Shown here piece after piece: positions 8,847 through 25,022 of a stretch of DNA of 64,000 nucleotides; the stretch's first letter is position 1; every line of letters starts with the position of its first letter. The DNA lies in the NCBI RefSeq assembly GCF_003932855.1, contig NZ_RQYZ01000001.1, positions 124,001 to 188,000 of the forward strand. Reading direction: 5' to 3'. The position numbers were made by a program, and so were the translations under genes. The notes under the pieces are model-generated. The model saw only the letters and a list, made by a program, of their open reading frames with translations, had not been told where the DNA came from and searched no databases. The DNA is from Tessaracoccus sp. OH4464_COT-324. GTDB lineage: Bacteria; Actinomycetota; Actinomycetes; Propionibacteriales; Propionibacteriaceae.

Positions 8847-9830
8847 TCAGCTGGGCAGCAGGCCCAGCCTACGCACCGCCTCTGCCTCCGCCTGCAGCTC
8901 TCCCACCGAGGCGTCGATGCGTGAACGCGCCAGGGCGTTCAATCTGAGCCCCTCCACGACGGTGTGGTCGCCGCCGCGGCAACGCACCGGAAACGAGCAC
9001 ATCAAACCCTCCGGGACTCCATATTCACCGTGGCTGTACACCGCCATCGATGTCCAGTCCCCGGGCGGTGTTCCGCGGAACCAGTCGCGGGCGTGCTCGA
9101 GGGTCGCATTCGCGGCAGAAGCCGCCGACGACTTGCCGCGGGCCGCGATGACCCCCGCACCTCGTCGGGCAACGGCCGGCGCGAAATCGAGGCTCAACCA
9201 GCCCTCGTCCACCCAGCTTGTGGCTGGGGAGCCGAGTATCGTCGCGTGGTAGGCGTCTGCGTACTGGGTGGCCGAATGGTTGCCCCAGATAGTCAGCTGC
9301 CGAACATCCTGCGGCCGTTGACGCACTTTGCGCGCCAACATTGCCCGCGCCCTGTTGTGGTCCAGCCGGGTCAAGGCCGTGAACCGCTCTGGTGGCACGC
9401 CACGGGCGTGCCTGGCAGCGATATAGGCGTTCGTGTTGGCGGGATTCCCCGTGACCACCACCCGTAGGTCATCTGCTGCGACCGCGGCGAGAGCCGCTCC
9501 CTGTTCAGCGAAGATGCTGCCGTTGGCGCTCAGCAGTTCAGAGCGCTCCATTCCCGCCCTGCGCGGTGCGGCACCAATCAGCAGCGCCAGGTTTACGCCG
9601 TCGAACACCCGACGAGGGTCAGAACCGATCTGCACATCTACCAAGGCTTTGGGGGCACAGTCAACGAGTTCCATGACCACGCCGTCCAGGGCCTTCAACG
9701 CTCCCTCGACCTCAAGCAGGCGCAACTCGATCGGCCGGTCTCCGCAGAGATCACCTTGGACGATTCTGGTGAGGATCGCGTAACCGATTTGCCCGGCGGC
9801 GCCCGTCACCGCAACCCTGAGCCGGTTCAT
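8847..9830 (-). CDS. mdh: Malate dehydrogenase, coupled to the end of the Pdu operon
   Basis: NAD-dependent malate dehydrogenase (327 aa) interconverting malate and oxaloacetate. The Rossmann loop is GAAGQIG (residues 10-16). The substrate loop APRRAGMER carries the malate-type Arg90/Arg91. GNPANTN lies near 128-134, RLDHNR contains Asp157, and WGNHS gives the catalytic His185. All catalytic residues are present, so it should be active. Its ATG overlaps the pduP TGA (ATGA at 9827-9830), which implies co-translation with the Pdu operon. It starts directly with the Rossmann strand and has no encapsulation-type N-terminal helix, so it is probably cytosolic. It is not a known core Pdu gene. Confidence 0.93.
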
Positions 9831-11242
9831 CGGACGTTCAGATCCCCGACGAGGACGCAGCGGCGCCGGCGAGCGAAATTGCGGGCCCGGGTGAGCCCCT
9901 CGCCCGTCGGACCTGCGATGGTGAACGTGGAATAGCCCTCGCCTCCGATGCCGATTCCGGTGAACGACGACCCGTTCTTCACGAAGATCGTGGTCTGGAT
10001 CAGCTTGCCCATCAGCGTCAGCTTGGACACGTCGCGCGAGTGCATGATCGCAGTGTGCCTGTTACCGTGCTCCAGCTTGCAGGCCAAATCGATCGCTGCA
10101 TCCACGTCCGGCACCCGAACCAACCCGATGATCGGCATCATCATCTCCTCCACCACGAAAGGATGGTCCTGTGCTGCCTCGAACACCAGCAGCCGCACCC
10201 CTGCTGGGGCAGTCACGCCGATGGCTTCCAGAATCTGCGTCGCGGGCTTGCCCACCCAGTCAGTTGCGGGGCCCCTCTTGCCCAGGAGAATCCCTTCCAG
10301 ACGATGGACCTGCTCCGCAGCCAGCTCGAAGGCGCCGTTCTTCACCATGTTGAACTTCAGCAGGTCAGCGATGGCGTCGACCGCTACGATCTCCTTCTCG
10401 GAGGTGCAGGGCAGGTTGTTGTCGAAACTCGCCCCATCAACGATGCACTTGGCTGCGTGCTCCAGATCCGCCGTCGTGTCCACCACGACAGGAGGATTGC
10501 CTGCTCCCGCGCCGATCGCTTTTTTGCCCGAGGACAGCACGCTGCGCACGATGCCGGGACCGCCCGTGGCCACGAGCAACCGAACGTCTGGGTGCGCCAT
10601 CATCGCCTGGGTGTTCTCGATCGACGGTTCCGCCACTGTTACCACGAGGTTCTCAGGTGCACCGACTGCGCGCAACGCCCGGTTGATGACCCGCACCTGC
10701 CAAAGTGACAAGTCGCGGGCACGAGGATGGGGACTGAAGACCACCGCGTTGCCGGCCGCCAACATCCCGATGGTGTTGCAGGTGATGGTCTCGGTCGGGT
10801 TGGTGGTCGGTGTGATCGCCCCGATGACACCATAGGGTGAGTACTCGACGGTGGTGAGCCCATCGTCTCCCGACCAGGCCTCGGTCACCAGATCCTCGAC
10901 GCCAGGCGTCAACTCTGCGGCGGCCTTGTTCTTGAGGTATTTGTGTCCGACGTCGCCCATCCCAGTCTGGAGCACGGCTTGGCTCGCCATGTGATCCAGG
11001 TGATCGGGCTCCAGCATGGCCTCGCGGATGGCCGCGACAAAGCGCCTGCGATCGGCCATCGAGCAGCGCAGATACTCCCGCCAGGCCTGGTCCGCGGCCG
11101 CTACGGCCTCATCCATTGATGGAAAGACCCCGTCGCTGTACTCGGCTTGCGCGCCCGAACCTTCGTTCGAGCTGAGTTGGCTTGGGAGCCGCTCCAGCAC
11201 CTTCCTGATCGTCTCTTCCAGCAGCGTGGGATCCAACATCAT
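9827..11242 (-). CDS. pduP: CoA-acylating propionaldehyde dehydrogenase
   Basis: Converts propionaldehyde, CoA and NAD+ to propionyl-CoA and NADH inside the microcompartment (471 aa). The N-terminal amphipathic helix ([15 protein letters not shown], residues 7-21) fits the encapsulation peptide described for PduP. An aldehyde dehydrogenase fold follows ([14 protein letters not shown] near 136-149), with catalytic Cys279 in NLPCTSEK. The start is the first ATG of an ATGATG pair overlapping the pduO stop, with AAGGAG seven bases upstream. EutE is the close alternative, but the setting is Pdu. Confidence 0.95.
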
Positions 11243-12234
11243 TCCTCATCTCCTTGTGCGTTTGTCCAAGCGAGCGCGTACTCGGCGATCAGGCAGTCCT
11301 CCTCGACCGTGCCGCCGGAAACACCCAACCCTCCCAGCAGGTGGCCGCGCTCATCGAATAGGGGGAAACCACCGCCGAACAGCACCACGCGCCCCTGGTT
11401 GCCGTCGGCCAGGCCGGGGAGCACCGTCGAGGCGGCCTCGCCCAGATTGGCGGTGGTCTGCTTGAAAGCAGCCGCCGTCCATGCCTTGTTCAGTGCGATA
11501 TCAGTGCTGGCCAGCAGCGTGTCGCTCATGCGCTCGAATGCCACTAGCCCGCCTCCGGCGTCCACGACAGCCACCGCTACGGGCACGCCCAGCGCACGCG
11601 CTTTGTCCTGGGCGCGCGCGACGAGCAGCTGGGCACGGGTCAAAACCGTGTCGTTGGGAAGGACCGTCAGGTGTTGTTTGACGGCCTTTCGGACGATCGC
11701 CTCGATGCGTTGCGCGTCTGCCCAGGATTCGCTCAGCCTCGCCAGCGCGTACACCGCGTCCGAGAGCCGATTCAAAAACTTGATCAACTCCGCGCGGACC
11801 TGCTCGTGTGCCGACAAGGTGAGAGTTCGTCGCTCGGCGCGGCGCACGATAGTGCGGGCAACATGGAAAACCGCGGAACGGGTGTCTCTTCCGGGAACCA
11901 CGAACGCGCGCTGTGGGCCGGTAACAGCCAGGCAGTCGTCAATGAGGTTCTCCAACTCGACGATGTCGTGAGCGTCAATTCGACCGTCGAGTTTCGCGGC
12001 CCCAGCCTCGTCGCTGGCCAACTCAGCGGCCAAGACAAACAAACGGTGCTGGATCCGGTGCACCCGATCGCGCCAATCGCCCTCCGGCAAGAGCGTCTTG
12101 GCTGCTCCCAAGGCAGAATTCGCCTCGTCCACCGCGCCGTAGGCCTCGACGCGTAGGCTGTCTTTGGCGACCCGGGAACCGCCGAACAGCCCCGTGTCTC
12201 CGGCGTCACCGGTGCGCGTGTAGATAGCAGGCAT
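11239..12234 (-). CDS. pduO: Cob(I)alamin adenosyltransferase PduO with C-terminal HbpS-like domain
   Basis: Adenosylates reduced cobalamin to make coenzyme B12 for PduCDE. The N-terminal PduO-type adenosyltransferase domain (about residues 1-180) begins AIYTRTGDAGDTGLFGG and contains the FVVPGRDTRSAVFHVARTIVRRAER block. The C-terminal DUF336/HbpS-like domain covers about 195-330 (VLTRAQLLVARAQDKA...). An in-frame ATG four codons upstream (12246) overlaps pduN by 11 nt, but I chose ATG 12234 because it has GAGG six bases upstream and matches the family N-terminus. It lacks an encapsulation-type leader helix. Confidence 0.95.
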   Translation of the reverse strand: MPAIYTRTGDAGDTGLFGGSRVAKDSLRVEAYGAVDEANSALGAAKTLLPEGDWRDRVHRIQHRLFVLAAELASDEAGAAKLDGRIDAHDIVELENLIDDCLAVTGPQRAFVVPGRDTRSAVFHVARTIVRRAERRTLTLSAHEQVRAELIKFLNRLSDAVYALARLSESWADAQRIEAIVRKAVKQHLTVLPNDTVLTRAQLLVARAQDKARALGVPVAVAVVDAGGGLVAFERMSDTLLASTDIALNKAWTAAAFKQTTANLGEAASTVLPGLADGNQGRVVLFGGGFPLFDERGHLLGGLGVSGGTVEEDCLIAEYALAWTNAQGDEE

Positions 12235-12235
12235 C

Positions 12236-12508
12236 TCACGCCTCATCTATCTCTACAGCGTCCACGATGCCCACTATCGTGGCGTCCAGGGGAGCCTGCG
12301 GTTTGTCCGCGCCGAAGCGGGCGCTGGAACCCTTGGTGATGATCACGGTTTCGCCCCGGCCCGCACCGACGGTGTCCACGGCCACCTCTGGAGCCGCGCA
12401 CGCATCGCCTTCCTTGTCCAGACGCTGGGTCAACAACAGTTTGAACCCAACCAGGCGCTCATCCTTGGTGGTGGATACTACCGTTCCGATGACTTTCGCG
12501 AGATACAT
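12236..12508 (-). CDS. pduN: Pentameric microcompartment vertex protein
   Basis: EutN/CcmL-family BMC-P protein (90 aa) that caps the vertices of the icosahedral shell. The N-terminus MYLAKVIGTVVST, the VDTVGAGRGETVIITKGSSAR block and DATIVGIVD near the C-terminus are characteristic. The AAAGGAG ribosome site lies within the end of the preceding gene, with a one-base gap between the two. Confidence 0.95.
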   Translation of the reverse strand: MYLAKVIGTVVSTTKDERLVGFKLLLTQRLDKEGDACAAPEVAVDTVGAGRGETVIITKGSSARFGADKPQAPLDATIVGIVDAVEIDEA

Positions 12509-12509
12509 T

Positions 12510-13238
12510 TCAGCTCCTTTGCTGGAAGGTGATGTTTCGCTTGTGGGCTAGGTCTCGTGCTAGATCCGTCACGATGGCGCGCGGGGCAATCCCAAGCGTC
12601 GAACCTTCCGGGGCTAGCGCGACGGTGGCTTGCGTGACCAGTCGCAACTCCTCTTTCGCTGGCTTCTCCGAGGCCGGGGACCGCCCGGGGCTGATGTGGC
12701 CCAGTACCGCTTCGTCGAGGAGAGTGGCGGGAGTGAGGGTCACCCCAAAACTCCGAATCATTTCGAGATTTCGGTGCAGCATCGCCTGGTAGGCCGCGGG
12801 CATGTTGGGAAACCAACCGCGCTTGGCCTCGGAGTCGGGGCAGGCACCGTCAACCACGGCAATCACTGGGCGGTTCGACATGATGAACTCCGCCATGAGG
12901 TTGGAAGCCAGGCAGTCGCCGATTCCGTGCGCAACTTTCGCGAAAAGATTGACCGTGGCGGTGGGCACTATGAGCAGGTCATGGGCCGTGGTGAGCGAGT
13001 CAGCAGCTGGCGTCATTCCGACGTCGGCAATCCGCTGCTCATCCAGGATGCGCTCGGCGCTAGGAGTCCGAGTCCAATCGAGTTGGACGGCGTCCGTGAG
13101 GCGTCGCAACGCCGCCAACGAGTCATCGAAGCCGAGTAGCGCGCCAGTGAACAGCACGAGTGCCCTGGGCCGTCGAGCCGGCAGCCCAAACTCGGCCAGC
13201 ACGCGGCGAATGATACGTTCGATCTCTTGTTCGGTCAT
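12510..13238 (-). CDS. pduM: PduM-position protein with a flavoprotein-like (HFCD) core
   Basis: 242 aa. The first 19 residues (MTEQEIERIIRRVLAEFGL) form an encapsulation-type amphipathic helix. The middle (about 27-165) resembles FMN-binding HFCD flavoproteins: DLLIVPTATVNLFAKVAHGIGD followed by RPVIAVVDGACP. The C-terminus (PRAIVTDLARDLAHKRNI) resembles the end of PduM as I remember it from enteric bacteria. PduM there is about 160 aa, so this protein is longer. The place between eutJ and pduN is the usual pduM slot. It overlaps the preceding gene by four bases (ATGA). It may be a shell-assembly protein, a flavin oxidoreductase or both; the symbol is by position and similarity. Confidence 0.65.
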   Translation of the reverse strand: MTEQEIERIIRRVLAEFGLPARRPRALVLFTGALLGFDDSLAALRRLTDAVQLDWTRTPSAERILDEQRIADVGMTPAADSLTTAHDLLIVPTATVNLFAKVAHGIGDCLASNLMAEFIMSNRPVIAVVDGACPDSEAKRGWFPNMPAAYQAMLHRNLEMIRSFGVTLTPATLLDEAVLGHISPGRSPASEKPAKEELRLVTQATVALAPEGSTLGIAPRAIVTDLARDLAHKRNITFQQRS

Positions 13239-14050
13239 GGTTGACCTTTCAAAGCGGTACCTAGGGGAGTGGGGAAAAGCGGGTGGGCGGGAGCCTCCAC
13301 CGGCCTACCGAGAACGGCGGAGAACACCCTCGTCGACTCGGGGAACGAAGTGGCGCCGCCCACCAGGAACACCTGATCCACCTCGCGCCCGGCCAGGATG
13401 CGTTTTGCGATGCTGGCCATCTTCTCCATCGTTGGGCGGATGAGCCCGAACACGAGCTTGGACTCAGCGGGGTCTTTCTTCAGTGTCTCTGCGGTGTCGT
13501 AGTCGAGGCCCAGCGCCCCGGAGAGCACCAAAGTCATGTGGTGGCCGCCCGTCGGTTCGTCGTCGGAAACGACGCAATTCCCATCTGCGAGGATGGAGAC
13601 CCCGGTGGTGCCGTGACCGACGTCAATGACGGCTCCGCTGCGGATGCCGAGAGCCCGGGCGGCGGCCACGGGTTCATCCACGATCTCGGCAACGCTGAGT
13701 TGGCAGGCCTCCACCACGTTGCTGAAGATTCTTGCGGTTGCCTTGTCAATTCCCGGTGGGACTGCGATGGCCGCGGAGTTGAACTCGTGGTTCAGCTTTG
13801 CCTGCAGCTCTGCCAGGAGCTGTTGCACCGTACGAACCGCGCCCAACCAGTCCACGACAATGCCGTCGCGCACCACCGTCGACGAGCGCCAGGCCCCGGC
13901 AACCGGCTGGCCGTGCAGGTCCGCGACGGCGAGCACGATGTTGCCGGTGCCGAGGTCGATGCCCAGCCGTAGGGGCCCTGTGACCTTGGCGGTTTCTCCC
14001 GAACCAACGAGATGGGAGAACTGCGCCAGTCGACGATGATGCGGATCCAT
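13235..14050 (-). CDS. eutJ: EutJ family actin/Hsp70-like ATPase
   Basis: 271 aa protein of the actin-like ATPase fold. Seen are the phosphate-1 loop LGIDLGTGNIVLAV (residues 28-41), a second phosphate loop AVIDVGHGTTGVSIL near 140 and the adenosine motif VFLVGGATSFPE near the end. It is thought to act as a chaperone for microcompartment enzymes, but the role in Pdu loci is unproven. Firmicutes-type pdu clusters carry a eutJ-like gene at the same place (after pduL), to my knowledge. It ends in an ATGA overlap with the next gene and follows pduL by two bases. Confidence 0.88.
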   Translation of the reverse strand: MDPHHRRLAQFSHLVGSGETAKVTGPLRLGIDLGTGNIVLAVADLHGQPVAGAWRSSTVVRDGIVVDWLGAVRTVQQLLAELQAKLNHEFNSAAIAVPPGIDKATARIFSNVVEACQLSVAEIVDEPVAAARALGIRSGAVIDVGHGTTGVSILADGNCVVSDDEPTGGHHMTLVLSGALGLDYDTAETLKKDPAESKLVFGLIRPTMEKMASIAKRILAGREVDQVFLVGGATSFPESTRVFSAVLGRPVEAPAHPLFPTPLGTALKGQP

Positions 14051-14052
14051 GG

Positions 14053-14688
14053 TTACTTCCCGAGGATTGTGGCCCAGTCGCCGGTGCTTGCTCCGATGGC
14101 GTTGCCCTCATCGGTGTCGAGATGCAGTTCCAGGAGGAAGGACGGTTTGACACGCACTAGGAAATGCTCCAAGATGCCGCCACGTTCGCCGTCGAATTGC
14201 ACACGGACTCGGTCCTGGTCGTTCAGGCCGAGCGCGGCCGCGTCGTCGGGGCTCATGTGGATGTGTCGCCCCGCGACGATGGCCGCGTGCTCCATCTGGA
14301 TGCGTCCCGCCGGGCCGGAGATTTCGATCGGACCAGCGTTTTCGAGTTGGCCCGATTGCGCCATCGGGGCCGAGACACCAAGCGCATAACAGTCGGTGCG
14401 GGAGAGTTCCACCTGTGTTGCGGGCCGGTTAGGGCCCATGACCCGCACCCGTTCCATCGAACCTCGGGGGCCATGCAGCGTCACGACTTCCTCGGCCGCG
14501 AATTCGCCGCGCTGCCGAACATACTTCTTCACCTTGGGGGCCTCATAGCCGAACAAGGTTCGGAAGTCGGCGTCGCTCAGGTGAACGTGCCGGTTGGATA
14601 TGCCGACCATCACTCGGTGGGGGTTGGCCTCGTTCAGCTGGGACAGCACGCGCGACGCGATCTCGGAAATCAGTTGCTGCTCGTTCAT
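14053..14688 (-). CDS. pduL: Phosphate propanoyltransferase PduL
   Basis: Converts propionyl-CoA and phosphate to propionyl phosphate, releasing CoA inside the compartment (211 aa). An N-terminal helix (NEQQLISEIASRVLSQL) fits an encapsulation peptide. The two beta-barrel domains carry the zinc-binding His motifs NRHVHLS (His34, His36) and RHIHMS (His142, His144), and the C-terminal LHLDTDEGNA. It is not related to Pta. The kinase that would make ATP from the product (PduW) is not in this window. Confidence 0.95.
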   Translation of the reverse strand: MNEQQLISEIASRVLSQLNEANPHRVMVGISNRHVHLSDADFRTLFGYEAPKVKKYVRQRGEFAAEEVVTLHGPRGSMERVRVMGPNRPATQVELSRTDCYALGVSAPMAQSGQLENAGPIEISGPAGRIQMEHAAIVAGRHIHMSPDDAAALGLNDQDRVRVQFDGERGGILEHFLVRVKPSFLLELHLDTDEGNAIGASTGDWATILGK

Positions 14689-14690
14689 GG

Positions 14691-14963
14691 TCAGGCCTTG
14701 GGCAGCAGTTTCTCGACGTCACTGTGTGGGCGCGGGATCACGTGCTGGCTGACGAGTTCACCCACCTTGGCTGCTGCGGCGGATCCGGCGTCCACAGCCG
14801 CCTTGACCGCGCCGACGTCGCCGCGCACCATCACGGTCACGAATCCGGCACCGATCTTCTCGGATCCGACGAGGGTGACGTTTGCGGATTTTGTCATGGC
14901 GTCGGCGGCCTCGACGGCCCCGACGAATCCCTTGGTCTCAACGAGACCCAGTGCTTGGCTCAT
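14691..14963 (-). CDS. pduJ: BMC-H hexameric shell protein PduJ
   Basis: Canonical single BMC-domain shell subunit (90 aa) forming hexagonal facets. It is nearly the same as the PduA encoded at 21368-21646 (about 85% identity by eye). The pore loop reads [10 protein letters not shown], with Ala39 where enteric PduA/PduJ carry the pore Ser40. I call it PduJ by its position after pduK. ATGA overlap with the upstream pduK stop; gap of two bases to pduL. Confidence 0.93.
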
Positions 14964-15448
14964 GCTTGCTTCCTCCTCGAGGTGGTTGTCTTGGCGGTGG
15001 TCGCCATGGCCGCAGCGGGCGCTGCGGTGATCTTGGGCGTCGGATGCTGGGCGGCCCGCGGTGCGGGCGACTCAGTTTCGGCGGATTTTTTGGTTAGGTC
15101 GGGGTTCGCCTCCTTGGCCGGCGGCGCAGTTTTCTTTGGCCGCTCCACGGGCTTCGGCGGCCGGTAGCCGACGGTGGAGTTGTTGTGCACAAGGCTTTCG
15201 ATCTGCTCGTTGGGTCTGGGTATCACGTGGTGGCTCACTACCCGCGAGATTCGACTCGCTGCGGTGCAGGCGGCGATGACCGCTGCCTGCACCGCGCCCA
15301 CCTGCCCGAGTACCTTGATGGTCACGTACCCGCCGCCCTTGGCGAGTTCGTAGCCAACCAGCTCCACGTTGGCGGTCTTACAGGCGACGTCGGCGGCCTC
15401 TATTGCAGCCACTAGCCCGACAGTCTCCACTGTTCCAAGTGCTTGCAT
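14960..15448 (-). CDS. pduK: BMC-domain shell protein PduK with long basic tail
   Basis: Residues 1-85 are a BMC-H domain ([20 protein letters not shown]; pore loop AKGGGYV). Residues 90-162 are a low-complexity, Pro/Ala/Thr/Lys-rich tail ([15 protein letters not shown] ... [13 protein letters not shown]), probably disordered. The tail has no cysteine, so it cannot carry an iron-sulfur site. It may face the lumen or cytoplasm and recruit partners. The start overlaps the pduH stop by one base (TAATG). Confidence 0.88.
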
Positions 15449-15813
15449 TACTGGTTCCTTTCGGTGAATCCTCGGAGCGGGATTCGTTTCACGATCCGGG
15501 CGGCGTTGGAGCCCAGCAGACGGGCGGCCTCAGCCGAGGTTGATTGGACGACGATGTAGGGTCGAGCCTCAGGCAGCTTGTCGAGGGTGACCACGGCATA
15601 GTCGAGGGACATACCGATGCCCACGCCTAGCCGGGACGAGGTGGCTGCGCTTTTCGCGAGCACCAGGGGATTCAGCTCCTCCCGATGGCTGACGACGCAC
15701 GGCACGCCCTCTTCCTCGACGCCGAGGAGAACCGCACTCAGCTGCCTCTCGTCCAGCCCGGTGGCGGCGAAAAGCTCGATGGTGGGGCTCTCAGCAGGTG
15801 GAATCCGCATCAT
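15448..15813 (-). CDS. pduH: Diol dehydratase reactivase small subunit
   Basis: Small subunit of the chaperone-like factor that releases damaged cobalamin from PduCDE (121 aa from the chosen start). The family fold is visible in PTIELFAATGLDERQLSAVLLGVEEEGVP and in LGVGIGMSLDYAVVTLDKLP. A TTG four codons upstream is possible, but I chose ATG 15813 because it forms an ATGA overlap with the pduG stop, as is common in this operon. Confidence 0.92.
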   Translation of the reverse strand: MMRIPPAESPTIELFAATGLDERQLSAVLLGVEEEGVPCVVSHREELNPLVLAKSAATSSRLGVGIGMSLDYAVVTLDKLPEARPYIVVQSTSAEAARLLGSNAARIVKRIPLRGFTERNQ

Positions 15814-17621
15814 GACCCCATCCAACTGAGGGCCAGACCGGTGGCAACGGCGTTACGGGGCCCTTCGGTGCCGCGGATGTTTGCGCGTCCGGCGACCACG
15901 CGGTATTCGGCCAGCGCCTTCGTCACCAGCTGCGGGATCTCGAAGTCGAGGGCGGAGCCGCCGACCAGCACCACGAAATCGATGCCGCGGATGTTGTCGG
16001 TGGGGCTCACTCGACGCAGCGCGCGCAACGAGTTGGTGACGAATACACGCTCCTTAGCCCGAATACGCACCTGGCGGATGGTCTCCACCGGCAGATCGAT
16101 CTCTAGCGGAACCATGCCGTCGGGTTTCAGAATCACCACCCGCGCGTACAGGTGAGGGGGCAGCGGCTCGTCGAAAAACTGCACGGTGCCGTCCTCATGC
16201 CGGATGTTGAACACCGTTTCCACCCGGGCCAGCGGATAACGCTTGACGTCCTCTGCGGTGTCGAACAGCTCCAGACCCAACTCGGACTGGATCATCAGCG
16301 TGACCATGTCTCCAGCACCGGCGAGGTGGATGGAGGTCCCGCTGCCGTCTGCCCGCATGATGGAGGCATCCGTTGACCCCGCGCCCATGTCTAGGATTGC
16401 AATGGGTGCGGCAGTACCGGGGGTGGTCAGCGCGCCGCGGATGGCCATGTCGGCCTCCACTCCTCCCACCTCAACCGGCACACCGAACTGCGCCGCCATC
16501 TCGTTTGCGAGGCGTTGCATCTGCAGTCTGTCGGTTTTCACCATCACGGCAATCCCGACGGCGGCCTCCATCGCGAACTCCTCGGCCACGCCCCCGGCCA
16601 CTCGCCGCGGAACATGTGTGTCGACGGCCAGCAGATCCGTGATCTTCACCGATTTCGGGTCGAGGTTGGTCAGCCCGCCCATGGTGACTCGCACCTTTTC
16701 CATCATGCCGCCGACGTTGGTGCCCGGCTGGCCGGTGATGTCGTCGACATCTGGGTTCTTCGCCAGGGCGGTCATGATGGCCTCGGCGCCCTCATCAACA
16801 TCGACCTCTACTGTGCGCTGCACGCTCTGGAAGCTGATCTTGCCCGCAGGGATCCTGCGCTCCTTCACATCGCCTTGCGGGGTCTTGATCACCACTGCTG
16901 AGCGGTTGCCGACGAGCGAGCGGGCGAGCGGGACGACCTGCTTTGTGTCGTCTGCATCCAAACCGAACAGGGTGGCGATCCCGAACGGGTTGGACAGGGT
17001 CTCGACGATGCGTCCCACTTCTGCGACCTCGACGGCCGCCAGCATTCCAATGGGCACCTTCTCGATATGGGCCACCTCATCAACGATCGGAATTTTGTTG
17101 GTCAACCGGTTATGCACCAGCACACCGTCGTCAAGTTGCAGGATCGCTCCGGCGACGGGTATTCGGTCAACCGCCTCGTTGATCAGGCGGGCCACCTCCT
17201 CGAAGGAGCGGCTGCGATCAGCCACGATGATCACAGGATCAGTCCCGCGCCAGGTGGGCAGGTCGGCCAGCAGCACCGTGCGGCCGACGCCGATGCCCAA
17301 GCCTCCCGGGGTCGCAGGGTTGTGACCGATCATCGTCGACTCGGTGATGATGGTCTCCGTGATGGTCTCCATCGCGACATCACCGATGACGGGGGCGGCC
17401 TCGTTAATCCGCACCAGATCCAGATCCGTCATCTTCAGGCCGGCCCGCTCCAGCGCGACGCTCAGGGCTTGGAAGACGCCCTTGATGTTCGCGTCCGTTC
17501 CCTTGATCCCGGTGGTGGGGATCGTGGCGGAGGCCAGGAAACGAAGGGAGTCGCCGGTGCGCTCGGCGAGCGCAACCTCAGTGCTTGCATTGCCGATGTC
17601 GATCCCGGCGACGATACCCAT
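15810..17621 (-). CDS. pduG: Diol dehydratase reactivase large subunit
   Basis: Hsp70/actin-like ATPase (603 aa) that works with PduH to exchange inactivated cobalamin in the dehydratase. The first phosphate loop is VAGIDIGNASTEVALA at the N-terminus; the second (APIAILDMGAGSTDASIM) is near residue 410, and the C-terminal motif is DFVVLVGGSALDFEIPQ. Length equals the family norm (about 605-610). Fifty bases separate it from pduE, the largest gap in the dehydratase block. Confidence 0.95.
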   Translation of the reverse strand: MGIVAGIDIGNASTEVALAERTGDSLRFLASATIPTTGIKGTDANIKGVFQALSVALERAGLKMTDLDLVRINEAAPVIGDVAMETITETIITESTMIGHNPATPGGLGIGVGRTVLLADLPTWRGTDPVIIVADRSRSFEEVARLINEAVDRIPVAGAILQLDDGVLVHNRLTNKIPIVDEVAHIEKVPIGMLAAVEVAEVGRIVETLSNPFGIATLFGLDADDTKQVVPLARSLVGNRSAVVIKTPQGDVKERRIPAGKISFQSVQRTVEVDVDEGAEAIMTALAKNPDVDDITGQPGTNVGGMMEKVRVTMGGLTNLDPKSVKITDLLAVDTHVPRRVAGGVAEEFAMEAAVGIAVMVKTDRLQMQRLANEMAAQFGVPVEVGGVEADMAIRGALTTPGTAAPIAILDMGAGSTDASIMRADGSGTSIHLAGAGDMVTLMIQSELGLELFDTAEDVKRYPLARVETVFNIRHEDGTVQFFDEPLPPHLYARVVILKPDGMVPLEIDLPVETIRQVRIRAKERVFVTNSLRALRRVSPTDNIRGIDFVVLVGGSALDFEIPQLVTKALAEYRVVAGRANIRGTEGPRNAVATGLALSWMGS

Positions 17622-17671: not shown

Positions 17672-18196
17672 TCAGTCGATCCGCAGACGATCCCGCTGCT
17701 CGTAGACGTCCGCAGCCTGCCGCACGAAACCGGCGGAGACCTTGGCCTGGTACTTCTGGTCCAGCTCGTCGGCGATGGCGTAGAGCTCGGCCTTCGTGGA
17801 GCGGTACGGGCGCAGCGCGTTGTAGATCTCCAGGAGCCGCTCGTCGGGTACGGCGACGAGCTCGGCCGCCCGGCGCATGTTGCGTGCCAGCGGGGCGCGC
17901 CCGGTGTCGTCCGCCACCTGGGCCTGCAACTCGAGGGTCTCCGGGGTGATCCGGAACTCGCTGGGGGACAGCGTGCCCGCCTTGACCTTGTCGAACTCCA
18001 AGTCGGTGAGGCTCAACCCGCCCGGAGTGGAGACCATCTCAGGATGCTTCTCCGCAAGCGGATAGTGTTCCTTGCTCACCTTGGTCGCTCGGCCAGGCGT
18101 GCCGGCGGGTTCCTTCTTCTGGAAGGAGACCTGCTGCTGGCCGAGATCCTTCATCACTTCGGCCATGATTTGGCGGATGAGTTGTTCTTGATCCAT
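17672..18196 (-). CDS. pduE: Propanediol/glycerol dehydratase small subunit
   Basis: Gamma subunit (174 aa) of the coenzyme B12-dependent diol dehydratase. The N-terminus MDQEQLIRQIMAEVMKDLG is an encapsulation-like helix. The core TGRAPLARNMRRAAELVAVPDERLLEIYNALRP is highly typical of PduE/DhaB3. AGGAG precedes the ATG. Nine bases separate it from pduD. Confidence 0.95.
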   Translation of the reverse strand: MDQEQLIRQIMAEVMKDLGQQQVSFQKKEPAGTPGRATKVSKEHYPLAEKHPEMVSTPGGLSLTDLEFDKVKAGTLSPSEFRITPETLELQAQVADDTGRAPLARNMRRAAELVAVPDERLLEIYNALRPYRSTKAELYAIADELDQKYQAKVSAGFVRQAADVYEQRDRLRID

Positions 18197-18205
18197 GGCG
18201 GTCTC

Positions 18206-18871
18206 CTAGACGTACGCGATTTGCAGGGCCGATGCCTTGCGCCGCTGGTCGGTTAGCTTGGTCTCCTTGTTGTGCAGCAGCGCTGCGACGGCCTGGTACT
18301 TCGGCCGGGCCATCTGGTCGTTGCGCACGGGCACCGGGCTGGGGGACTGGCCCTTCGCGTAGAGGGCGGCGTTCTTGCCGATTGCGCGGAAGGTGTCGAG
18401 ATCCAGCAAAGGAGCCTGCGAGAACAACTCCAGGTTGGAAAGCGGCGGCAGGTCTTTCTGATGAATCACCGTGGTCCCCCGGGACTGGATGCCGATGCCG
18501 ATGCCGGAGCCGGAGTGCTTGGCCGCCTCGTGGGCGATGAACCCGACGTCGGCGGTGCGGTAGACCTTGATGAAGCGGTAGTTCAGGCCCTCCTCCTCGA
18601 TGCCGGCGGTGATCTGTTTCAACACGTCGCCGTGCTTGAGTCCGGTGATCGTTTCCATGATCTGGGTGCTGAACGCGGGCGATAGCGCGACCACCACCTC
18701 CTTGGGGTCGGATCCGACGGCGGCCTCGCCTTGCTCGGTGAGGCGCACCGTTGCGCTCGGGTTCACCTTCACCGGGGCCTGCTGGGGAGTGGGCTGGGCG
18801 GTCTGCTCGGCCAACACCTCCAAGATCACCTTCTGGATCAGTTCCTTCAAAGTTGCTTGATCGACGCTCAT
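18206..18871 (-). CDS. pduD: Propanediol/glycerol dehydratase medium subunit
   Basis: Beta subunit (221 aa) of the diol dehydratase, part of the B12-binding region. The N-terminal helix (TLKELIQKVILEVLAEQ) is the kind shown to target the dehydratase to the compartment lumen in enteric bacteria. The conserved core is VVVALSPAFSTQIMETI then GIGIGIQSRGTTVIHQKDL. The start is ATG 18871, preceded by a strong GGAGG that lies within the end of pduC; an upstream GTG (18925) lies inside pduC and is rejected. Confidence 0.95.
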   Translation of the reverse strand: MSVDQATLKELIQKVILEVLAEQTAQPTPQQAPVKVNPSATVRLTEQGEAAVGSDPKEVVVALSPAFSTQIMETITGLKHGDVLKQITAGIEEEGLNYRFIKVYRTADVGFIAHEAAKHSGSGIGIGIQSRGTTVIHQKDLPPLSNLELFSQAPLLDLDTFRAIGKNAALYAKGQSPSPVPVRNDQMARPKYQAVAALLHNKETKLTDQRRKASALQIAYV

Positions 18872-18873
18872 GA

Positions 18874-20535
18874 TCACACCTCCTCCGGGCTGATTGCGGA
18901 GCGCACCTGCTTGATCTCGTCCCAACGCTGGTCCGTGATCAGGTATCCGGTCTGCGGGCCGTGGTAGTCGTTCGGGTAGTTCACTGCGGAATTGACGTTG
19001 AAGCTCTCGTCAAAGATCGCGGAGGTGTGCAGGTAGTCACCTGCGACGCGCCGCTTCAGCAGGTTGAAGACAGAGCTGGCCACGTCGTCGAAGCCTCCAC
19101 GGGAGAGGGCCAGCGCCACGTCCATGCCGGTGGTTCCCCGCTTCATCATCTCTTCGGTTGCTTTGAGATCCTCGACGACGTTGCGCTTGGGCATGTCCTT
19201 GGAGCCGTGCGCATAGGTGGCCGCCTCGACCTCCTCGTCGGTGATCTCGGTGAGGCCGAGTTCACGGAAAGCCGCCTGCGTTGCCCTGGCAGCCTTGTTT
19301 CGCACACGCACGACTTCCTCTTCGAGCGCCGGGGTGAGGCCGCCGTCGACATGCAGGTCGCGCTGCAGGATGTTCCAGTCGTCGTAGTCCTCGGCGTCCC
19401 AGTTGGAGCCCGCGAACATGTTGTCGTAGTTCGGGGTGGCCGAGTAGCCGGAGCAGATGAAGTCGGTGCCAGGCACGAACTGCATCAGGGAGCGGGCCAC
19501 GCGGCGCAGATCGGAGTGTGTGAAGGTCTGGTCGTTGGATGAGGCGCATTCCAGGTCGAGCATCATCGCGATCAGGTTCTCGGCCAGGATCGCGCGGATG
19601 CCCTGCGGTACTGCGGCGGGAACACCGACACAGCTGACGGAGCCGTTCTGAGTACCCTGGGAACCAGCGGCCTTCGTCACGAACAGGCAACGAGCCTCCA
19701 GGTAGAGCATGGACTTGCCCTCGGCGAAGCCCATCTGCACTTCGGAACCGGTGCCCGAGGTGAAACGCATCTTCAGCCCGCGCGACGCGTAGCAGGACGC
19801 GAGAAATGCCTTGGACCACGGCGTATCGTCGCCGTCCATGAAGACATCCTCGGTGCCGTAAACGGAGACGGTCTCGGCGTAGGCGGTGAGGCCGCGCATT
19901 CCGAGGGTCAACTCGGTGGCTTCCTCAACGGCGCACTGGGTGAGAGTTCCAGGTCGACCAACCTGGGAACCGATGAGTAGAGCCAATGCGTTGAACGGCG
20001 CGTAGCGCACGATGCCGACGGTGGTCTCCATCTCTGCGAATCCGCGGATGGCCGCTTCGGCGGCGTCTGCCGCAATCTGGACGGGGTTGTCCGCGAGGTT
20101 CGTCACGTGGCACTGGTTGGCGGGGGAGCGTCGGGCGCGAAGCTTGGTTACTGCGAGCATCATCTCCAGCACACTCATGTGATTAACGATCTCGGTCAGC
20201 TTGGCCGGCGTCATGGCTGTGGTGAGTGGGATGATTTCGGAGCGTGGCACGTTGATGTCGCAAAGTCTGCGGGCCATCTCCAGGGAGTCTATGGCCATCG
20301 CCTGCTCAGCCAACTCCAGGTTGATGCCGTAGGAGGCGATGAAGGTGTCCAGCATGTCGAACTCGGAGCATGACTTGCCGTCAAGTTCGGTCACGTGACC
20401 GTTCTCGATCCGGATGGAGGGCGTCGGGTCGTTCGGCGACTTCATCGCGATCAGCCCGACCTCTGCCCACTCCGTGACGAAGCCGTCTTGGTTCACTGGG
20501 CGCGCATCGAGCGCCTCAAATCTCTTGGAACGCAT
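18874..20535 (-). CDS. pduC: Propanediol/glycerol dehydratase large subunit
   Basis: Catalytic alpha subunit (553 aa; family about 554) holding the radical active site of coenzyme B12-dependent diol dehydratase. The family blocks are collinear throughout: RSKRFEALDARPVNQDGF at the N-terminus, ANQCHVTNLADNPVQIAADAAEAA near 140-163, RFTSGTGSEVQMGFAEGKSM mid-protein and a C-terminal NDYHGPQTGYL. Nothing is missing. Sequence alone does not decide between preference for 1,2-propanediol and glycerol; the shell genes argue for propanediol. Confidence 0.96.
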   Translation of the reverse strand: MRSKRFEALDARPVNQDGFVTEWAEVGLIAMKSPNDPTPSIRIENGHVTELDGKSCSEFDMLDTFIASYGINLELAEQAMAIDSLEMARRLCDINVPRSEIIPLTTAMTPAKLTEIVNHMSVLEMMLAVTKLRARRSPANQCHVTNLADNPVQIAADAAEAAIRGFAEMETTVGIVRYAPFNALALLIGSQVGRPGTLTQCAVEEATELTLGMRGLTAYAETVSVYGTEDVFMDGDDTPWSKAFLASCYASRGLKMRFTSGTGSEVQMGFAEGKSMLYLEARCLFVTKAAGSQGTQNGSVSCVGVPAAVPQGIRAILAENLIAMMLDLECASSNDQTFTHSDLRRVARSLMQFVPGTDFICSGYSATPNYDNMFAGSNWDAEDYDDWNILQRDLHVDGGLTPALEEEVVRVRNKAARATQAAFRELGLTEITDEEVEAATYAHGSKDMPKRNVVEDLKATEEMMKRGTTGMDVALALSRGGFDDVASSVFNLLKRRVAGDYLHTSAIFDESFNVNSAVNYPNDYHGPQTGYLITDQRWDEIKQVRSAISPEEV

Positions 20536-20546
20536 TGCTGTAACTC

Positions 20547-21353
20547 TTAGATGTACGGGGTGGTGGCGGACGTGGGCACGGAACCGAGGGCGCCCAGGAG
20601 GCCGATACCCACCTCTCGGGCGGCGATGATTGCCTGGCGGACAGCTCCGGAGTCGCCGCTGAAGGCCGAGATCACCTCGTTGCTGAAGCTGGTGCCTTTG
20701 GCGGGGCTGGAGTAGGCGATCACGTCAATGGTGGACGCCTTGACCGCGGTGTCGGCGAGAACGACGCCGATCGCCGCCGGTGCGCCAACCGTGATGCCGA
20801 AGCTCTTGCCGAGGGGGGCACCGAAGGCCATGTTGAGCGCGTAGGAGGCGCGAGCGGTGTACTGGAATTCGAGATGGCCGGCCTCGTTGGCGTACACGTC
20901 GCCAAAGGTCCGATCCAGCTCGCCCAGCGTCACCTCAACGGCGCGACGGGCGTCGGACACGTCCTCAGCGCCGAATACGATCAACGAGCCGTGGCCCGCA
21001 CCGCCCTGCGTGTCGCGGGGGAGCTCGATTTTCAGCACCTCAGAGTTGGTGGCCTTGACGGCTTCGTCCGCCGCGAAGATGTGCGGCCCGGCACCGGTGC
21101 GGGCGCCCACGATGCCGATGGAGCGGTACTTCTTGTCGAGCTCCATCATCTCGTGCAGCTTGGGATCCACGTTGGCGATCACCAGGCCGATGGTCTCCCC
21201 GATCGCGGTGCCCACGAATTCGGTGCAGGCAGGACGGGCGGGAGCAGCTGGGGCTGCTGGGGCCGCGGGGGCGGCTTGCGCTGGAGCGTCGACCGTCCCG
21301 CCGAGCTGCTTCATGACCTCGGCCATGACCTTGTTCATCAGTTCGTCTTGCAT
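20547..21353 (-). CDS. pduB: BMC-T trimeric tandem-domain shell protein PduB
   Basis: Two fused BMC domains that trimerize into a shell tile with a gated pore (268 aa). The N-terminus (MQDELMNKVMAEVMKQLGG) is followed by an Ala/Pro linker (about 20-38). In enteric PduB this N-terminal segment links shell to cargo. I chose ATG 21353, with GGGGAG five bases upstream; the GTG at 21371 lies in the pduA stop region. A PduB' internal start (seen in Salmonella) is not clearly present: no Met with a good ribosome site is evident in the linker. Confidence 0.93.
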   Translation of the reverse strand: MQDELMNKVMAEVMKQLGGTVDAPAQAAPAAPAAPAAPARPACTEFVGTAIGETIGLVIANVDPKLHEMMELDKKYRSIGIVGARTGAGPHIFAADEAVKATNSEVLKIELPRDTQGGAGHGSLIVFGAEDVSDARRAVEVTLGELDRTFGDVYANEAGHLEFQYTARASYALNMAFGAPLGKSFGITVGAPAAIGVVLADTAVKASTIDVIAYSSPAKGTSFSNEVISAFSGDSGAVRQAIIAAREVGIGLLGALGSVPTSATTPYI

Positions 21354-21367
21354 GTTCGCTCCCCAAC

Positions 21368-21646
21368 TCACTTCGCGTTGACCGGCAAGATTTTCTCGAC
21401 GTCGGTGTGCGGGCGTGGGATAACGTGCACGCTGACCAGCTCGCCGACCTTGCTCGCGGCAGCTGCGCCGGCGTCTGCGGCGGCCTTCACCGCACCGACA
21501 TCCCCGCGGACCATGACCGTGACGAAGCCGGCACCGATCTTCTCGCTACCGACCAGTTGTACGTTGGCCGACTTCACCATGGCATCCGCTGCCTCGACAG
21601 CACCCACGAAACCTTTCGTCTCGACCATGCCAAGTGCTTCTTGCAT
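21368..21646 (-). CDS. pduA: BMC-H hexameric shell protein PduA, first gene of the operon
   Basis: Major hexameric shell subunit (92 aa). [24 protein letters not shown] at the N-terminus and [15 protein letters not shown] at the C-terminus are textbook PduA. The pore loop is [10 protein letters not shown]; Ala39 replaces the pore Ser40 of Salmonella PduA and Ser34 replaces its Tyr. AAAGGAG lies upstream of the ATG. It is the promoter-proximal gene of the roughly 13-kb minus-strand operon. Confidence 0.96.
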
Positions 21647-22154: not shown

Positions 22155-22594
22155 TGTACCGGCCGACTCTTCTGGTGGGCAGCGTGGGCGCGGGCAAAAC
22201 GACGTTGCGGCAGCGGCTGTTGGGGGAGGAAATTGAGTACGCCAAGACTCAGGCGATGGACGTCGTCGGAAACATCGTCGATACGCCCGGGGAATACCTG
22301 GACCACGGCCGGCTGAATCGGGCACTCACCATCAGTGCATACGACGTGGAGATCGTGGTTCTGGTTCTGGATCCAACTGCGGACAACTCCCGCTTCAACC
22401 CGGGGTATGCAGCGGCCCTCAACCGCCGGACTGTTGGCGTGGTGACCAAACGCGATGTTGCCACCGTGGCTCAGCTGGCGGATGCGCGGGAGAATCTGGT
22501 GCGGGCGGGGGCTGAGCGAGTGATCGTGGTGAGCGGTGTCACAGGACAAGGGATCAACGAACTGAAGGAGGCGCTATGCAGCACGTCGACTTGA
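22154..22594 (+). CDS. pduV: PduV/EutP family small GTPase
   Basis: Ras-like P-loop protein (146 aa) reported to bind the outside of the microcompartment and to help position it. Motifs: G1 GSVGAGKTTL (residues 9-18), G3 DTPGEY, G4 TKRD. The start overlaps the pduU stop; the 3' end overlaps pocR by 19 nt. A GTG three bases upstream (22151) is an alternative start. Confidence 0.9.
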   Translation: MYRPTLLVGSVGAGKTTLRQRLLGEEIEYAKTQAMDVVGNIVDTPGEYLDHGRLNRALTISAYDVEIVVLVLDPTADNSRFNPGYAAALNRRTVGVVTKRDVATVAQLADARENLVRAGAERVIVVSGVTGQGINELKEALCSTST

Positions 22595-23919
22595 GCGGTT
22601 TCGATCCCGGTCTGCTCGACCTGCGCAGGCTGATCGATATAGAGAAACTGCAGGCGATTCAGGAGGAGTTCGCGCGCGACACCGGGCTCGCCATGATTAC
22701 CGTCGATGCAATGGGCACTCCCGTCACCGAGGCTTCCCAGTTCACTCAGCTCTGTGAGTTCTTGCGCCGAGACCCGGAGATCCGTAAGCGTTGCTACAGC
22801 TGCGACGCGCACGGTGGATTCCAGGCAGCCCTCGAAGGGCGCCCCTTCATCTATCGGTGCCATGCCGGGCTGGTGGACTTCTCGGTGTCCATCATGGCGG
22901 GCAAGCACTTCCTGGGGGCCATCATGGCCGGCCAGGTGATGCTGCAGAAGGGCATGGATCAGCTCGACAGGATAATCAGCATTTCGAGCGGGCTCTCCGA
23001 CGACGAGGTGGGGGAGCTGTACGACGGAATCCGGGTGGTCGAGTTGGCCAAGCTGGAAAGCGCAGCGCAGCGGATCATCAGCATGGCAAATGATGCGCTG
23101 GGCAAGCAGCAGGCCTATTTCGATTTCTCGGCGACCGCCGGAACCTACTTGGGGCGGGTGCAGCCCTACCCAGCGGAGGGGACGGGTCGCCTGCTGGCGC
23201 CGATCGTCGCTTCCCGGGCCAAGGAGGCCCCGCTCATCCCGATTGTTCCGTCGCCGGTGGAGGCGGAGGCGGAACTCAACCCCACCGAGTGGGCGCAGAA
23301 CCTGCGCCGACGCAACGTGGCGGCCAACCTGGAACTCCTGAACGACTTCCTCGACACGGTGATGCCCCGATGGAGCCTCAAGATTCCGGTCAGCGTGTTG
23401 GGTCCGCTGGAGGACATGCTGATCGGGATCGCTTCGAGCGAGGGCGTGCGGTATGGAAAGGAAATATCGCAGTCTGTAATCACGCAACGCAAGAAACGCA
23501 CCGCACCACTGAATAGGTATGCAGCCCAGGTGTACTGCGAGCGGCTGTTGATCCAGTTGCACGATTTGATTGAGCCGGAGCTACCGCCGGGCGAGCGCAG
23601 CATCGCCACGTTGCTGAACGAGATCGAGAAGGAGCCAACGGCGTTCCTGACCTGTGCGAAAGCCGCGGAGTTCCTGATGTGGAGCGAGTCGCACTTCTCC
23701 AGGCAGTTCCGCAAGCACACCGGTTACAGCTTCAACCAATACGTCACGAGGAAGCGTATTGAGCGCGGCAAGTTTTTGCTGGTGCACACTGACAAGCCCG
23801 TACTGCGCATTGCTGCGCACCTCAAGTTCCAGCCGCTGAACTATTTTTCGCGCGCGTTCAAACGCGAAGAGGGCGTCACCCCGTCGGAATATCGGGACAG
23901 CCACCGCACAGAGGAGTGA
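22576..23919 (+). CDS. pocR: PocR-type AraC family transcriptional regulator
   Basis: Activator expected to switch on pdu (and often cobalamin) genes in response to 1,2-propanediol (447 aa). Residues about 12-165 form a PocR sensory domain, including RCYSCDAHGGFQAALEGRPFIYRCHAGLVDFSVSI with its conserved cysteines. A middle helical part is followed by a C-terminal AraC pair of helix-turn-helix motifs (residues about 350-445: TCAKAAEFLMWSESHFSRQF ... PLNYFSRAFKREEGVTPSEYR). Cobalamin synthesis genes are not in this window. Translationally coupled to pduV and pduQ. Confidence 0.93.
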   Translation: MQHVDLSGFDPGLLDLRRLIDIEKLQAIQEEFARDTGLAMITVDAMGTPVTEASQFTQLCEFLRRDPEIRKRCYSCDAHGGFQAALEGRPFIYRCHAGLVDFSVSIMAGKHFLGAIMAGQVMLQKGMDQLDRIISISSGLSDDEVGELYDGIRVVELAKLESAAQRIISMANDALGKQQAYFDFSATAGTYLGRVQPYPAEGTGRLLAPIVASRAKEAPLIPIVPSPVEAEAELNPTEWAQNLRRRNVAANLELLNDFLDTVMPRWSLKIPVSVLGPLEDMLIGIASSEGVRYGKEISQSVITQRKKRTAPLNRYAAQVYCERLLIQLHDLIEPELPPGERSIATLLNEIEKEPTAFLTCAKAAEFLMWSESHFSRQFRKHTGYSFNQYVTRKRIERGKFLLVHTDKPVLRIAAHLKFQPLNYFSRAFKREEGVTPSEYRDSHRTEE

Positions 23920-23921
23920 TG

Positions 23922-25022
23922 ATGCAGGAGTTCCGCCTGAACACAACCGTAAAGATGGGTTTCGACTCGCTGACCGCGCTGCAGGCCTACCGTGGGAAGG
24001 CCGCACTTGTCGTCACGGACGATTTCCTGTCGAGCACGAAGCTATTCGACGAGATCCGCTTTCACCTGGGTGGGGAGCCGACGGTGTACTCGGGCGTGCT
24101 GCCGGACCCGACGGTCTCCGTGGTGAAGGAAGGGGTGGCCCGTTACCTGGCGGCTCGCCCTGACGTGGTGGTTGCCTTCGGCGGGGGATCGGTGATGGAT
24201 ACCGCGAAGGCCATGCACAAGGCCGCGGTCGACAACGACTTCGGCGCCCCGGAGGGCATCGTCGCCATTCCGTCGACGAGCGGATCGGGCTCGGAGGTGA
24301 CCTCGTTCGCGGTGCTCACCGATGAGCAGACGCACACCAAGATCCCCCTCGTCTCTGCGGACATGGTGGCGAAGGTCGCCATCTTGGATCCCGACGCGGT
24401 GCTCAGCCTGCCGCCAAGGATCACGGCCGATTCGGGGCTGGACGTGTTGACGCACGCCCTGGAGGCCTACGTCTCGGTGGACGCCAGCGACTTTTCCGAC
24501 GCGCTTGCCGAGAAGGCGGTCGAGCTGGTCTTTGCCCACCTGGAAACGGTTTTCCGTGACGGCTCAAACGCGGAGTCGCGCACCAGGATGCACAACGCCT
24601 CCTGCATGGCGGCCATGGCCTTTGACAACTGTGGGCTGGGGATCACCCACAGCCTGGCCCATGCGCTCGGCGGACATTTCCACATCCCCCATGGCCGATG
24701 CAACGCCATGCTGCTCCCACACGTCATCGAGTACAATTCGCGCTGCCCGCGCGCGGCCGAGCGCTACGCCCGGCTGGGCCACATGCTGTCGCCTTCCGCG
24801 ACGGGTAGGGCGGCGGTGACCGCTCTCGTCGCCCGGGTGAGGAAGCTGAATCAGGCTCTGGAGGTGCCCGAAACCGTGCGGGAGGCGGGAATCAGCTTGG
24901 CCGAGTACCGACAGTTGATCGAGGAGATGGCCGCGACGGCCGCCGCTGATGGCTGCACTCCGACCAACCCCATTCGCCCCAGCCACGAGGATCTTGTCCT
25001 ACTGTTGCGCAAGCTGGGCTAG
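23922..25022 (+). CDS. pduQ: Iron-dependent propanol dehydrogenase PduQ
   Basis: Reduces propionaldehyde to 1-propanol with NADH and so recycles NAD+ for PduP (366 aa). Group III Fe-ADH features: the nucleotide loop FGGGSVMDTAKAMHKAA, IPSTSGSGSEVTSFAVLTD, and the metal-binding His residues in GITHSLAHALGG and HIPHGRCNAMLLPHV. I chose ATG 23922, five bases after GAGGAG; ATG 23919 overlapping the pocR TGA is equally possible. Its TAG overlaps the stop of the convergent ABC permease gene (CTAG, 25019-25022). Confidence 0.92.
   Translation: MQEFRLNTTVKMGFDSLTALQAYRGKAALVVTDDFLSSTKLFDEIRFHLGGEPTVYSGVLPDPTVSVVKEGVARYLAARPDVVVAFGGGSVMDTAKAMHKAAVDNDFGAPEGIVAIPSTSGSGSEVTSFAVLTDEQTHTKIPLVSADMVAKVAILDPDAVLSLPPRITADSGLDVLTHALEAYVSVDASDFSDALAEKAVELVFAHLETVFRDGSNAESRTRMHNASCMAAMAFDNCGLGITHSLAHALGGHFHIPHGRCNAMLLPHVIEYNSRCPRAAERYARLGHMLSPSATGRAAVTALVARVRKLNQALEVPETVREAGISLAEYRQLIEEMAATAAADGCTPTNPIRPSHEDLVLLLRKLG

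Follow-up and report, generated by a model that had tools for sequence, protein, structure and literature searches.

Background

The CoA-acylating propionaldehyde dehydrogenase PduP makes one NADH per propionyl-CoA, and in the usual balance half of the propanediol goes to propanol. In the Salmonella-type PDU1 operon pduP is followed by pduQ, pduS and pduT. The return of NAD+ to microcompartment enzymes is a central question for metabolosomes, and for Pdu the known answer is that PduQ recycles it internally: in the available sections of PMC3471927, Salmonella PduQ is reported to co-purify with the compartments, to bind PduP directly and to recycle NAD+ internally.

The nearest precedent for a malate dehydrogenase in such a setting is found in the accessible part of Axen et al. 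(2014, PMC4207490), where a gene of the lactate/malate dehydrogenase family was predicted to regenerate NAD+ in PVM loci, and was considered for the same task in MIC1 loci, as a substitute for the core alcohol dehydrogenase. A full-text literature search, covering titles and the beginnings of abstracts, with supplementary locus tables and subscription papers outside its reach, returned no recognisable report of mdh in a pdu locus. The term "malate dehydrogenase" is used twice in PMC4207490, for the PVM and MIC1 loci, and twice in PMC7650540, where it does not concern pdu, and the word "malate" is absent from the main text of PMC8217296 and PMC6620236. The pair described below may sit unremarked in PMC4207490, because Propionibacterium sp. 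oral taxon 192, which is among its genomes, carries it.

Here we describe a pdu operon of Tessaracoccus sp. OH4464_COT-324, contained in the window (the whole stretch of 64,000 nucleotides that was analyzed), in which the gene directly behind pduP encodes a malate dehydrogenase (MDH). On balance we lean towards regarding this enzyme as a pdu-dedicated, NAD-type paralogue, recruited once, that would consume the NADH of PduP by way of oxaloacetate, alongside a PduQ-type alcohol dehydrogenase.

Results and discussion

The pdu operon of the window

The operon is complete and lies on the minus strand, from pduA to mdh, its last gene (Table 1). It contains the genes of a PDU1-type locus: PduCDE and PduGH (PF02286, PF02288, PF02287, PF08841), shell proteins of the BMC-H, BMC-T (PduB) and BMC-P (PduN) classes, and PduP and PduL with targeting helices, recognized by hydrophobic moment only. 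With the Salmonella-type PDU1 operon it shares the dehydratase, reactivase, PduL, PduN, PduO, PduP and shell genes and the presence of an oxidoreductase gene behind pduP, but here that gene encodes a malate dehydrogenase, and the alcohol dehydrogenase gene is divergent from the operon, beside the PocR-type gene. No model named PduQ matched this iron-containing alcohol dehydrogenase (Fe-ADH), PduS and PduT had no match in the window, and pduW was not noticed when the open reading frames of the window were inspected by eye.

Like the PVM and MIC1 loci, as described in the accessible part of PMC4207490, the window holds an Ldh_1-family dehydrogenase gene within a compartment locus. Unlike the window, according to the same text, PVM has an aldolase and MIC1 no recognised signature enzyme, and whereas their dehydrogenase was proposed to stand in for the alcohol dehydrogenase, the MDH of the window is an addition to one that is retained. 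The MDH is thus not the only NAD-recycling oxidoreductase besides the aldehyde dehydrogenase, as it would be in a PVM-type locus, since the Fe-ADH gene lies beside the operon.

The gene after mdh, lepA by eye, is convergent and 16 bases away. Within the same island, the stretch 25019-28040, between the Fe-ADH gene and a hemW-like gene, looks by eye as if it encoded an ABC transporter of the sugar type, with a binding lipoprotein and two permeases.

Table 1. Positions of the pdu genes of the window and of related genes in other Propionibacteriaceae
Feature	Position	Strand	Basis
mdh, pdu-type malate dehydrogenase paralogue, 327 aa, last operon gene	8847..9830	-	model match
pduP, CoA-acylating propionaldehyde dehydrogenase, 471 aa, N-terminal encapsulation-type helix	9827..11242	-	model match; hydrophobic moment
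pduO, cobalamin adenosyltransferase with HbpS-like domain	11239..12246	-	model match
pduN, BMC-P (EutN/CcmL) vertex protein	12236..12508	-	model match
pduM-like flavoprotein-fold protein, N-terminal amphipathic helix	12510..13238	-	assignment weak
eutJ-type chaperone-like ATPase	13235..14050	-	model match
pduL, phosphate propanoyltransferase	14053..14688	-	model match; helix test
BMC-H shell protein (PduA/J type)	14691..14963	-	model match
BMC-H shell protein with C-terminal extension (PduK type)	14960..15448	-	model match
pduH, dehydratase reactivase small subunit	15448..15825	-	Pfam Dehydratase_MU fold; pduH by position
pduG, diol dehydratase reactivase	15810..17621	-	model match
pduE, diol dehydratase small subunit	17672..18196	-	model match
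pduD, diol dehydratase medium subunit	18206..18925	-	open reading frame; true start probably internal
pduC, diol dehydratase large subunit	18874..20535	-	model match
pduB, BMC-T shell protein	20547..21371	-	model match
pduA, BMC-H shell protein, first operon gene	21368..21646	-	model match
PocR-domain AraC-type regulator, divergent from operon	22576..23919	+	model match
Fe-ADH, PduQ candidate, divergent, after PocR-type gene	23916..25022	+	model match
Orphan pdu-type mdh, putative relic, G039	L151:9584-10600		truncated open frame
Orphan pdu-type mdh, putative relic, G106	L152		truncated open frame
BMC-Tdp shell gene after mdh, genus g17, G113	L098:10036-10686		
BMC-Tdp shell gene after mdh, genus g17, G096	L153:528-1175		

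Identity of the mdh product and its junction with pduP

The product of mdh can be firmly assigned as a malate dehydrogenase (MalateDH-SF1/PRK05442), because it exceeded the curated cut-offs of two models, NF003916 (455.3 bits against 271) and TIGR01759 (410.9 bits against 345.65), matched both Pfam Ldh_1_N and Ldh_1_C, and had malate dehydrogenases (4tvo, 5kvv) as its nearest solved chains, with matches over nearly the whole length. The pduP product exceeded the cut-off of the aldehyde dehydrogenase model PRK15398 (677 bits against 403), which we take to represent the PduP/EutE type.

The initial annotation had described all catalytic residues of the MDH as intact, and the alignment agrees: R90, R96, N129, D157, R160, H185 and S234, which in MDH biochemistry are the substrate arginines, the Asp-His pair, the substrate Asn and the Ser, are present in the window protein, in all 17 pdu-type copies and in all 56 non-pdu MDHs. 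A changed substrate was rejected for the pdu MDH, the substrate-binding arginines being unaltered. The acidic beta-2 residue, which is linked to NAD preference, is E40 in the window, and is E in 14 and D in three of the 17 pdu copies. The pdu MDH thus resembles the actinobacterial housekeeping enzymes (4tvo, 5kvv) in fold family, catalytic residues and NAD-type residue, but differs from them in forming a separate, faster-evolving clade, whose genes were met in pdu operons, as relics, or at a contig edge (G096). At the 160 near-invariant columns defined by the 56 non-pdu MDHs the window copy departs 25 times, the other pdu copies 8 to 29 times.

The start of mdh and the stop of pduP share the four bases ATGA (9827-9830, minus strand), so that the coordinates of both frames bear out the overlap first noticed in the sequence. 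The junction recurs on unbroken contigs of 15 other genomes, and across a contig break in one more, its spacing ranging from four shared bases to no more than nine intervening ones. The two genes overlap in the ATGA manner in the window, G112, G113 and G057, and by TGATG in G159 and G095; the remaining junctions have gaps of nine bases or fewer, measured from the ATG or GTG nearest the conserved start. This recurrence argues that the junction is more than chance, and its form suggests that the two genes are translationally coupled.

Distribution of the pair

Among 197 Propionibacteriaceae genomes, 59 contained a PduP match at E 1e-60. Of the 58 besides the window, 46 had other pdu genes beside pduP (only pduO on the shortest contigs), giving 47 pdu loci with the window, and 12 had a lone aldehyde dehydrogenase with no pdu match nearby (eight in genus g14, two each in g4 and g22). 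Malate dehydrogenase is encoded directly behind pduP in 17 of the 47 loci: in the window and G112, G124, G194, G189, G174, G070, G143, G155, G159, G095, G190, G172 and G184 of the same genus, in G113 and G057 of genus g17, and in G196, where pduP is cut at a contig edge and the 3' end of a pduP, with mdh immediately behind it, lies on another contig. By genus, these are 15 of the 17 pduP-bearing genomes in that of the window and two of six in g17. The two exceptions in the genus of the window, G129 and G192, had no match for PduL, EutJ, PduM, PduN or a PduJ-type shell gene. Their pdu operons (L095 in G129, Arachnia propionica OH2822; L096 in G192) are reduced and without mdh, yet the dehydratase, PduO and PduP are present.

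A wider scan with the window PduP, across genomes from 84,980 species, yielded 205 relatives, and among the best 80 of these mdh was found in seven loci, all belonging to the 17 genomes above; they include Tessaracoccus sp. MC1679, [Pseudopropionibacterium] massiliense and Propionibacterium sp. oral taxon 192 F0372. The other 73 loci, which include other Propionibacteriaceae, Firmicutes and Proteobacteria and of which some lie on short contigs, gave no MDH match in the fetched DNA (tblastn, E 1e-5). Absence carries less weight in several of the mdh-less loci because they end shortly after pduP (199 bases in L118).

The comparison across the family proposed in the initial annotation thus found mdh beside pduP in 17 genomes, not in a single one, and a strain-specific accident was rejected, since the pair recurs in family genomes and in the named loci. 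In several genomes the genes downstream of mdh are unrelated, so mdh moves with pdu; no gene consistently follows it when open reading frames are intercompared (few of them named), and hence no partner such as fumarase or malic enzyme tells the direction of the reaction. These data support the view that mdh belongs to this pdu operon as a dedicated and conserved gene.

A different arrangement occurs in genera g14 and g4, where a lone pduP-like aldehyde dehydrogenase gene lies about 440 bp downstream of the single housekeeping mdh (L062-L068, L070, L071). This spacing was seen in seven of the eight g14 and both g4 genomes with that dehydrogenase, the genes being about 13 kb apart in G013. It was rejected as an instance of the same pair because no other pdu gene had a match nearby, the spacing is about 440 bp and the match begins only at PduP residue 28-37.

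Second mdh, phylogeny and selection

Another mdh, as the initial annotation had advised looking for, is present in the genome of the window (G000:C185:111467-112435), 61% identical to the pdu copy and next to genes that by eye resemble folD and purU. The possibility that the mdh of the window is the sole housekeeping gene was rejected on this ground. In the 38 genomes of the genus, the window included, two mdh copies were found in 14, one in 23 and none in G147 (E 1e-40). All 14 two-copy genomes carry pduP, and none of the 21 genomes without a PduP match has a second mdh. G147, which lacks any malate dehydrogenase match at this threshold, is given as 100% complete.

A tree of 75 MDHs unites the 17 pdu copies with two relics in a single clade (100/99), which nests within the MDHs of Propionibacteriaceae (100/95); the 18 MDHs taken from other families of the class lie outside. 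This tree omits five near-identical g14 housekeeping rows and 12 of 30 class loci, and both MDH trees omit the partial G096 gene. In a 62-row tree without outgroups a branch (100/99) separated 43 housekeeping rows from the pdu copies and relics; midpoint rooting put G159 and G095 on the housekeeping side, and some labels differed in this tree, G196 and the relics being labelled housekeeping. In the PduP tree (49 rows, 45 from the family, without G175 and G196) a single clade of 19 rows (100/99) takes in all 16 mdh-bearing loci along with the mdh-less G129, G192 and G026, and genus g17 is divided between this clade and another. The simplest reading would be that mdh was gained once and lost at least twice, and that the unit as a whole passed between genera. 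By the evidence of these trees, malate dehydrogenase was recruited once by the pdu lineage and mostly kept behind pduP.

The relics are pdu-type mdh genes in G039 and G106. The surrounding 16-19 kb gave no match to any pdu gene, and the open frames of the relics lack the N-terminal part that carries the nucleotide-binding motif. Their neighbours are TetR and ABC genes that have homologues behind mdh in G057, and the relics are therefore best read as remains of a lost pdu operon, probably through one event common to these related genomes. A pdu operon of the other type lies elsewhere in the genome of G106. The genes from pduL to mdh are retained in G174, in whose genome no diol dehydratase (PduC) was found. 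In that locus (L086, Tessaracoccus sp. MC1679) pduL to mdh and a partial Fe-ADH gene lie between lepA- and hemW-like flanks, as in the window, and PocR, the dehydratase and the first shell genes had no match there. In G096 the end of a pdu-type mdh lies at a contig edge, with no PduP match.

The ratio dN/dS was 0.12-0.24 for the pdu MDH (10 pairs from five related genomes, the window not among them), 0.08-0.20 for PduP and 0.04-0.09 for the housekeeping MDH of the same five. Purifying selection on the pdu MDH is shown by these ratios to be close to that on pduP in the five relatives. The pdu MDHs evolve faster than the housekeeping ones, and within this fast-evolving group the window protein, whose branch is one of the longest, belongs to the most diverged. 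Since it also lies outside the dN/dS set, constraint on mdh may be reduced in this strain.

The faster evolution, together with the three loci of the mdh-bearing PduP clade that do without mdh, is what would be expected if mdh were a hitchhiker, or a dosage copy, that does nothing specific to pdu. We regard this as very unlikely, given that the junction is conserved in 17 genomes at several genomic sites, that the gene is under purifying selection, that all catalytic residues are kept, and that no second mdh without pduP occurs among the 38 genomes of the genus.

Alcohol dehydrogenase, PduS and the position behind pduP

The initial annotation had suggested that MDH might act in parallel with or instead of PduQ. 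The second alternative is not supported, because the divergent Fe-ADH gene had a match in the window and in each of the 10 further mdh-bearing loci long enough to include it (some matches are cut at the edge of the fetched stretch and that of G174 is partial; in the other six loci the contig ends first). From its presence in all 11 checkable loci, mdh would add to PduQ and not replace it.

A PduS-type electron-transfer flavoprotein is encoded behind pduP in five of the 30 mdh-less loci (L077, L107, L116, L117 and, start only, L118), three of which, in family relatives, also have PduT. PduS was found in no mdh-bearing locus, and 25 of the 30 mdh-less loci have neither. The recognised redox protein behind pduP is therefore PduS or MDH, never both, and most mdh-less loci leave the position empty.

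Location relative to the shell

The lack of an encapsulation helix had been taken to suggest that the enzyme works outside the shell. The first part of this stands: in the intact pdu copies listed only 5-10 residues precede the first Rossmann motif, with no encapsulation-type helix, and the hydrophobic moment of the window MDH N-terminus is no better than that of shuffled sequences (share as high, 0.61; 17 proteins, uncorrected). The corresponding shares were 0.024 for PduP (whose best stretch holds a proline), 0.038 for PduM, 0.048 for PduL and 0.022 for PduB; PduD (0.33) and PduE (0.12) did not stand out, although their helices look similar by eye. The second part is weak, because the Fe-ADH N-terminus has no such helix either (0.51), because Salmonella PduQ binds PduP, and because a shell gene follows mdh in two relatives.

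That gene, the next after mdh in G113 and G096 (whose contig begins inside mdh), encodes a CcmP/HO-5816-type shell protein (BMC-Tdp). Proteins of this type have large gated pores. They occur away from pduP in 13 more of the 197 family genomes, and none was found in the genome of the window. In the portion of the 2021 catalog (PMC8217296) available to us BMC-Tdp proteins are assigned to PDU1D loci and to no other PDU type, and a figure legend describes gated pores as conduits for larger metabolites.

An MDH inside the compartment or bound to PduP could recycle a private NAD+ pool of the lumen, with oxaloacetate and malate crossing the shell. Its gene would then occupy the position of pduQ in Salmonella and of pduS in five relatives, the shell gene of G113 and G096 would fit, and the NAD+ regeneration predicted for PVM and considered for MIC1 (PMC4207490, accessible part) would be a precedent. 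We consider this doubtful, since there is neither a targeting helix nor room for one at the N-terminus, the C-terminal ends exceed those of the housekeeping enzymes by only a few residues, and the shell gene follows mdh in just two genomes, no such protein having been found in that of the window.

Proposed role of the MDH

The equilibrium of the MDH reaction strongly favours malate formation. An extra MDH tied to the NADH-making PduP suggests a dedicated route of NADH disposal, which is plausible. The MDH would spend the NADH of PduP in reducing oxaloacetate to malate, the direction being our inference, and the malate would feed the reductive arm of the Wood-Werkman cycle via fumarate and succinate. 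Propanediol carbon could then become propionate, with a gain of ATP, where otherwise half of it would end up as propanol. The MDH would complement the PduQ-type alcohol dehydrogenase and not replace it. The genome encodes, side by side, two proteins of the methylmalonyl-CoA mutase family, presumably the two subunits, as well as two PYC_OADA proteins with open frames of 1135 and 503 codons, presumed from these sizes to be pyruvate carboxylase and the 5S subunit of transcarboxylase. Enzyme type, NAD-type residue, reaction equilibrium and Wood-Werkman-type genes fit the proposal.

Several observations speak against an NADH sink. A source of oxaloacetate would be required, and it is not obvious that propanediol by itself provides one; mdh is missing from 30 of the 47 family pdu loci, 25 of which lack PduS too; three mdh-less loci lie inside the mdh-bearing PduP clade; and mdh is kept in G174 without a diol dehydratase, and its end is found in G096 without a PduP match.

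The same mutase-family and PYC_OADA genes would also serve a cycle running in reverse, in which propionyl-CoA from propanediol and oxaloacetate give methylmalonyl-CoA and pyruvate, followed by succinate, fumarate, malate and oxaloacetate, with the MDH oxidising malate; extra regeneration of oxaloacetate would be needed exactly when propionyl-CoA is abundant. This is unlikely in our judgement, because it goes against an equilibrium strongly in favour of malate and adds NADH to an NADH-producing pathway, so that an electron acceptor would be needed, and because the position beside PduP is held in Salmonella by PduQ, which oxidises NADH (function from the available sections of PMC3471927).

Conclusions

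The favoured reading, an MDH that disposes of PduP's NADH, has a further-reaching form, in which the Pdu compartment itself runs on malate. The MDH would work with PduP in or on the compartment, NAD+ would be recycled by oxaloacetate, propanediol oxidation would be hard-wired to the Wood-Werkman cycle with no half lost as propanol, and some relatives would have added a large-pore shell protein for the passage of dicarboxylates or cofactors. We hold this form to be doubtful. A conserved Pdu variant with its own MDH would link the compartment directly to the central fermentation cycle, and this could explain the use of propanediol without loss of carbon to propanol, with a bearing on propionate production.
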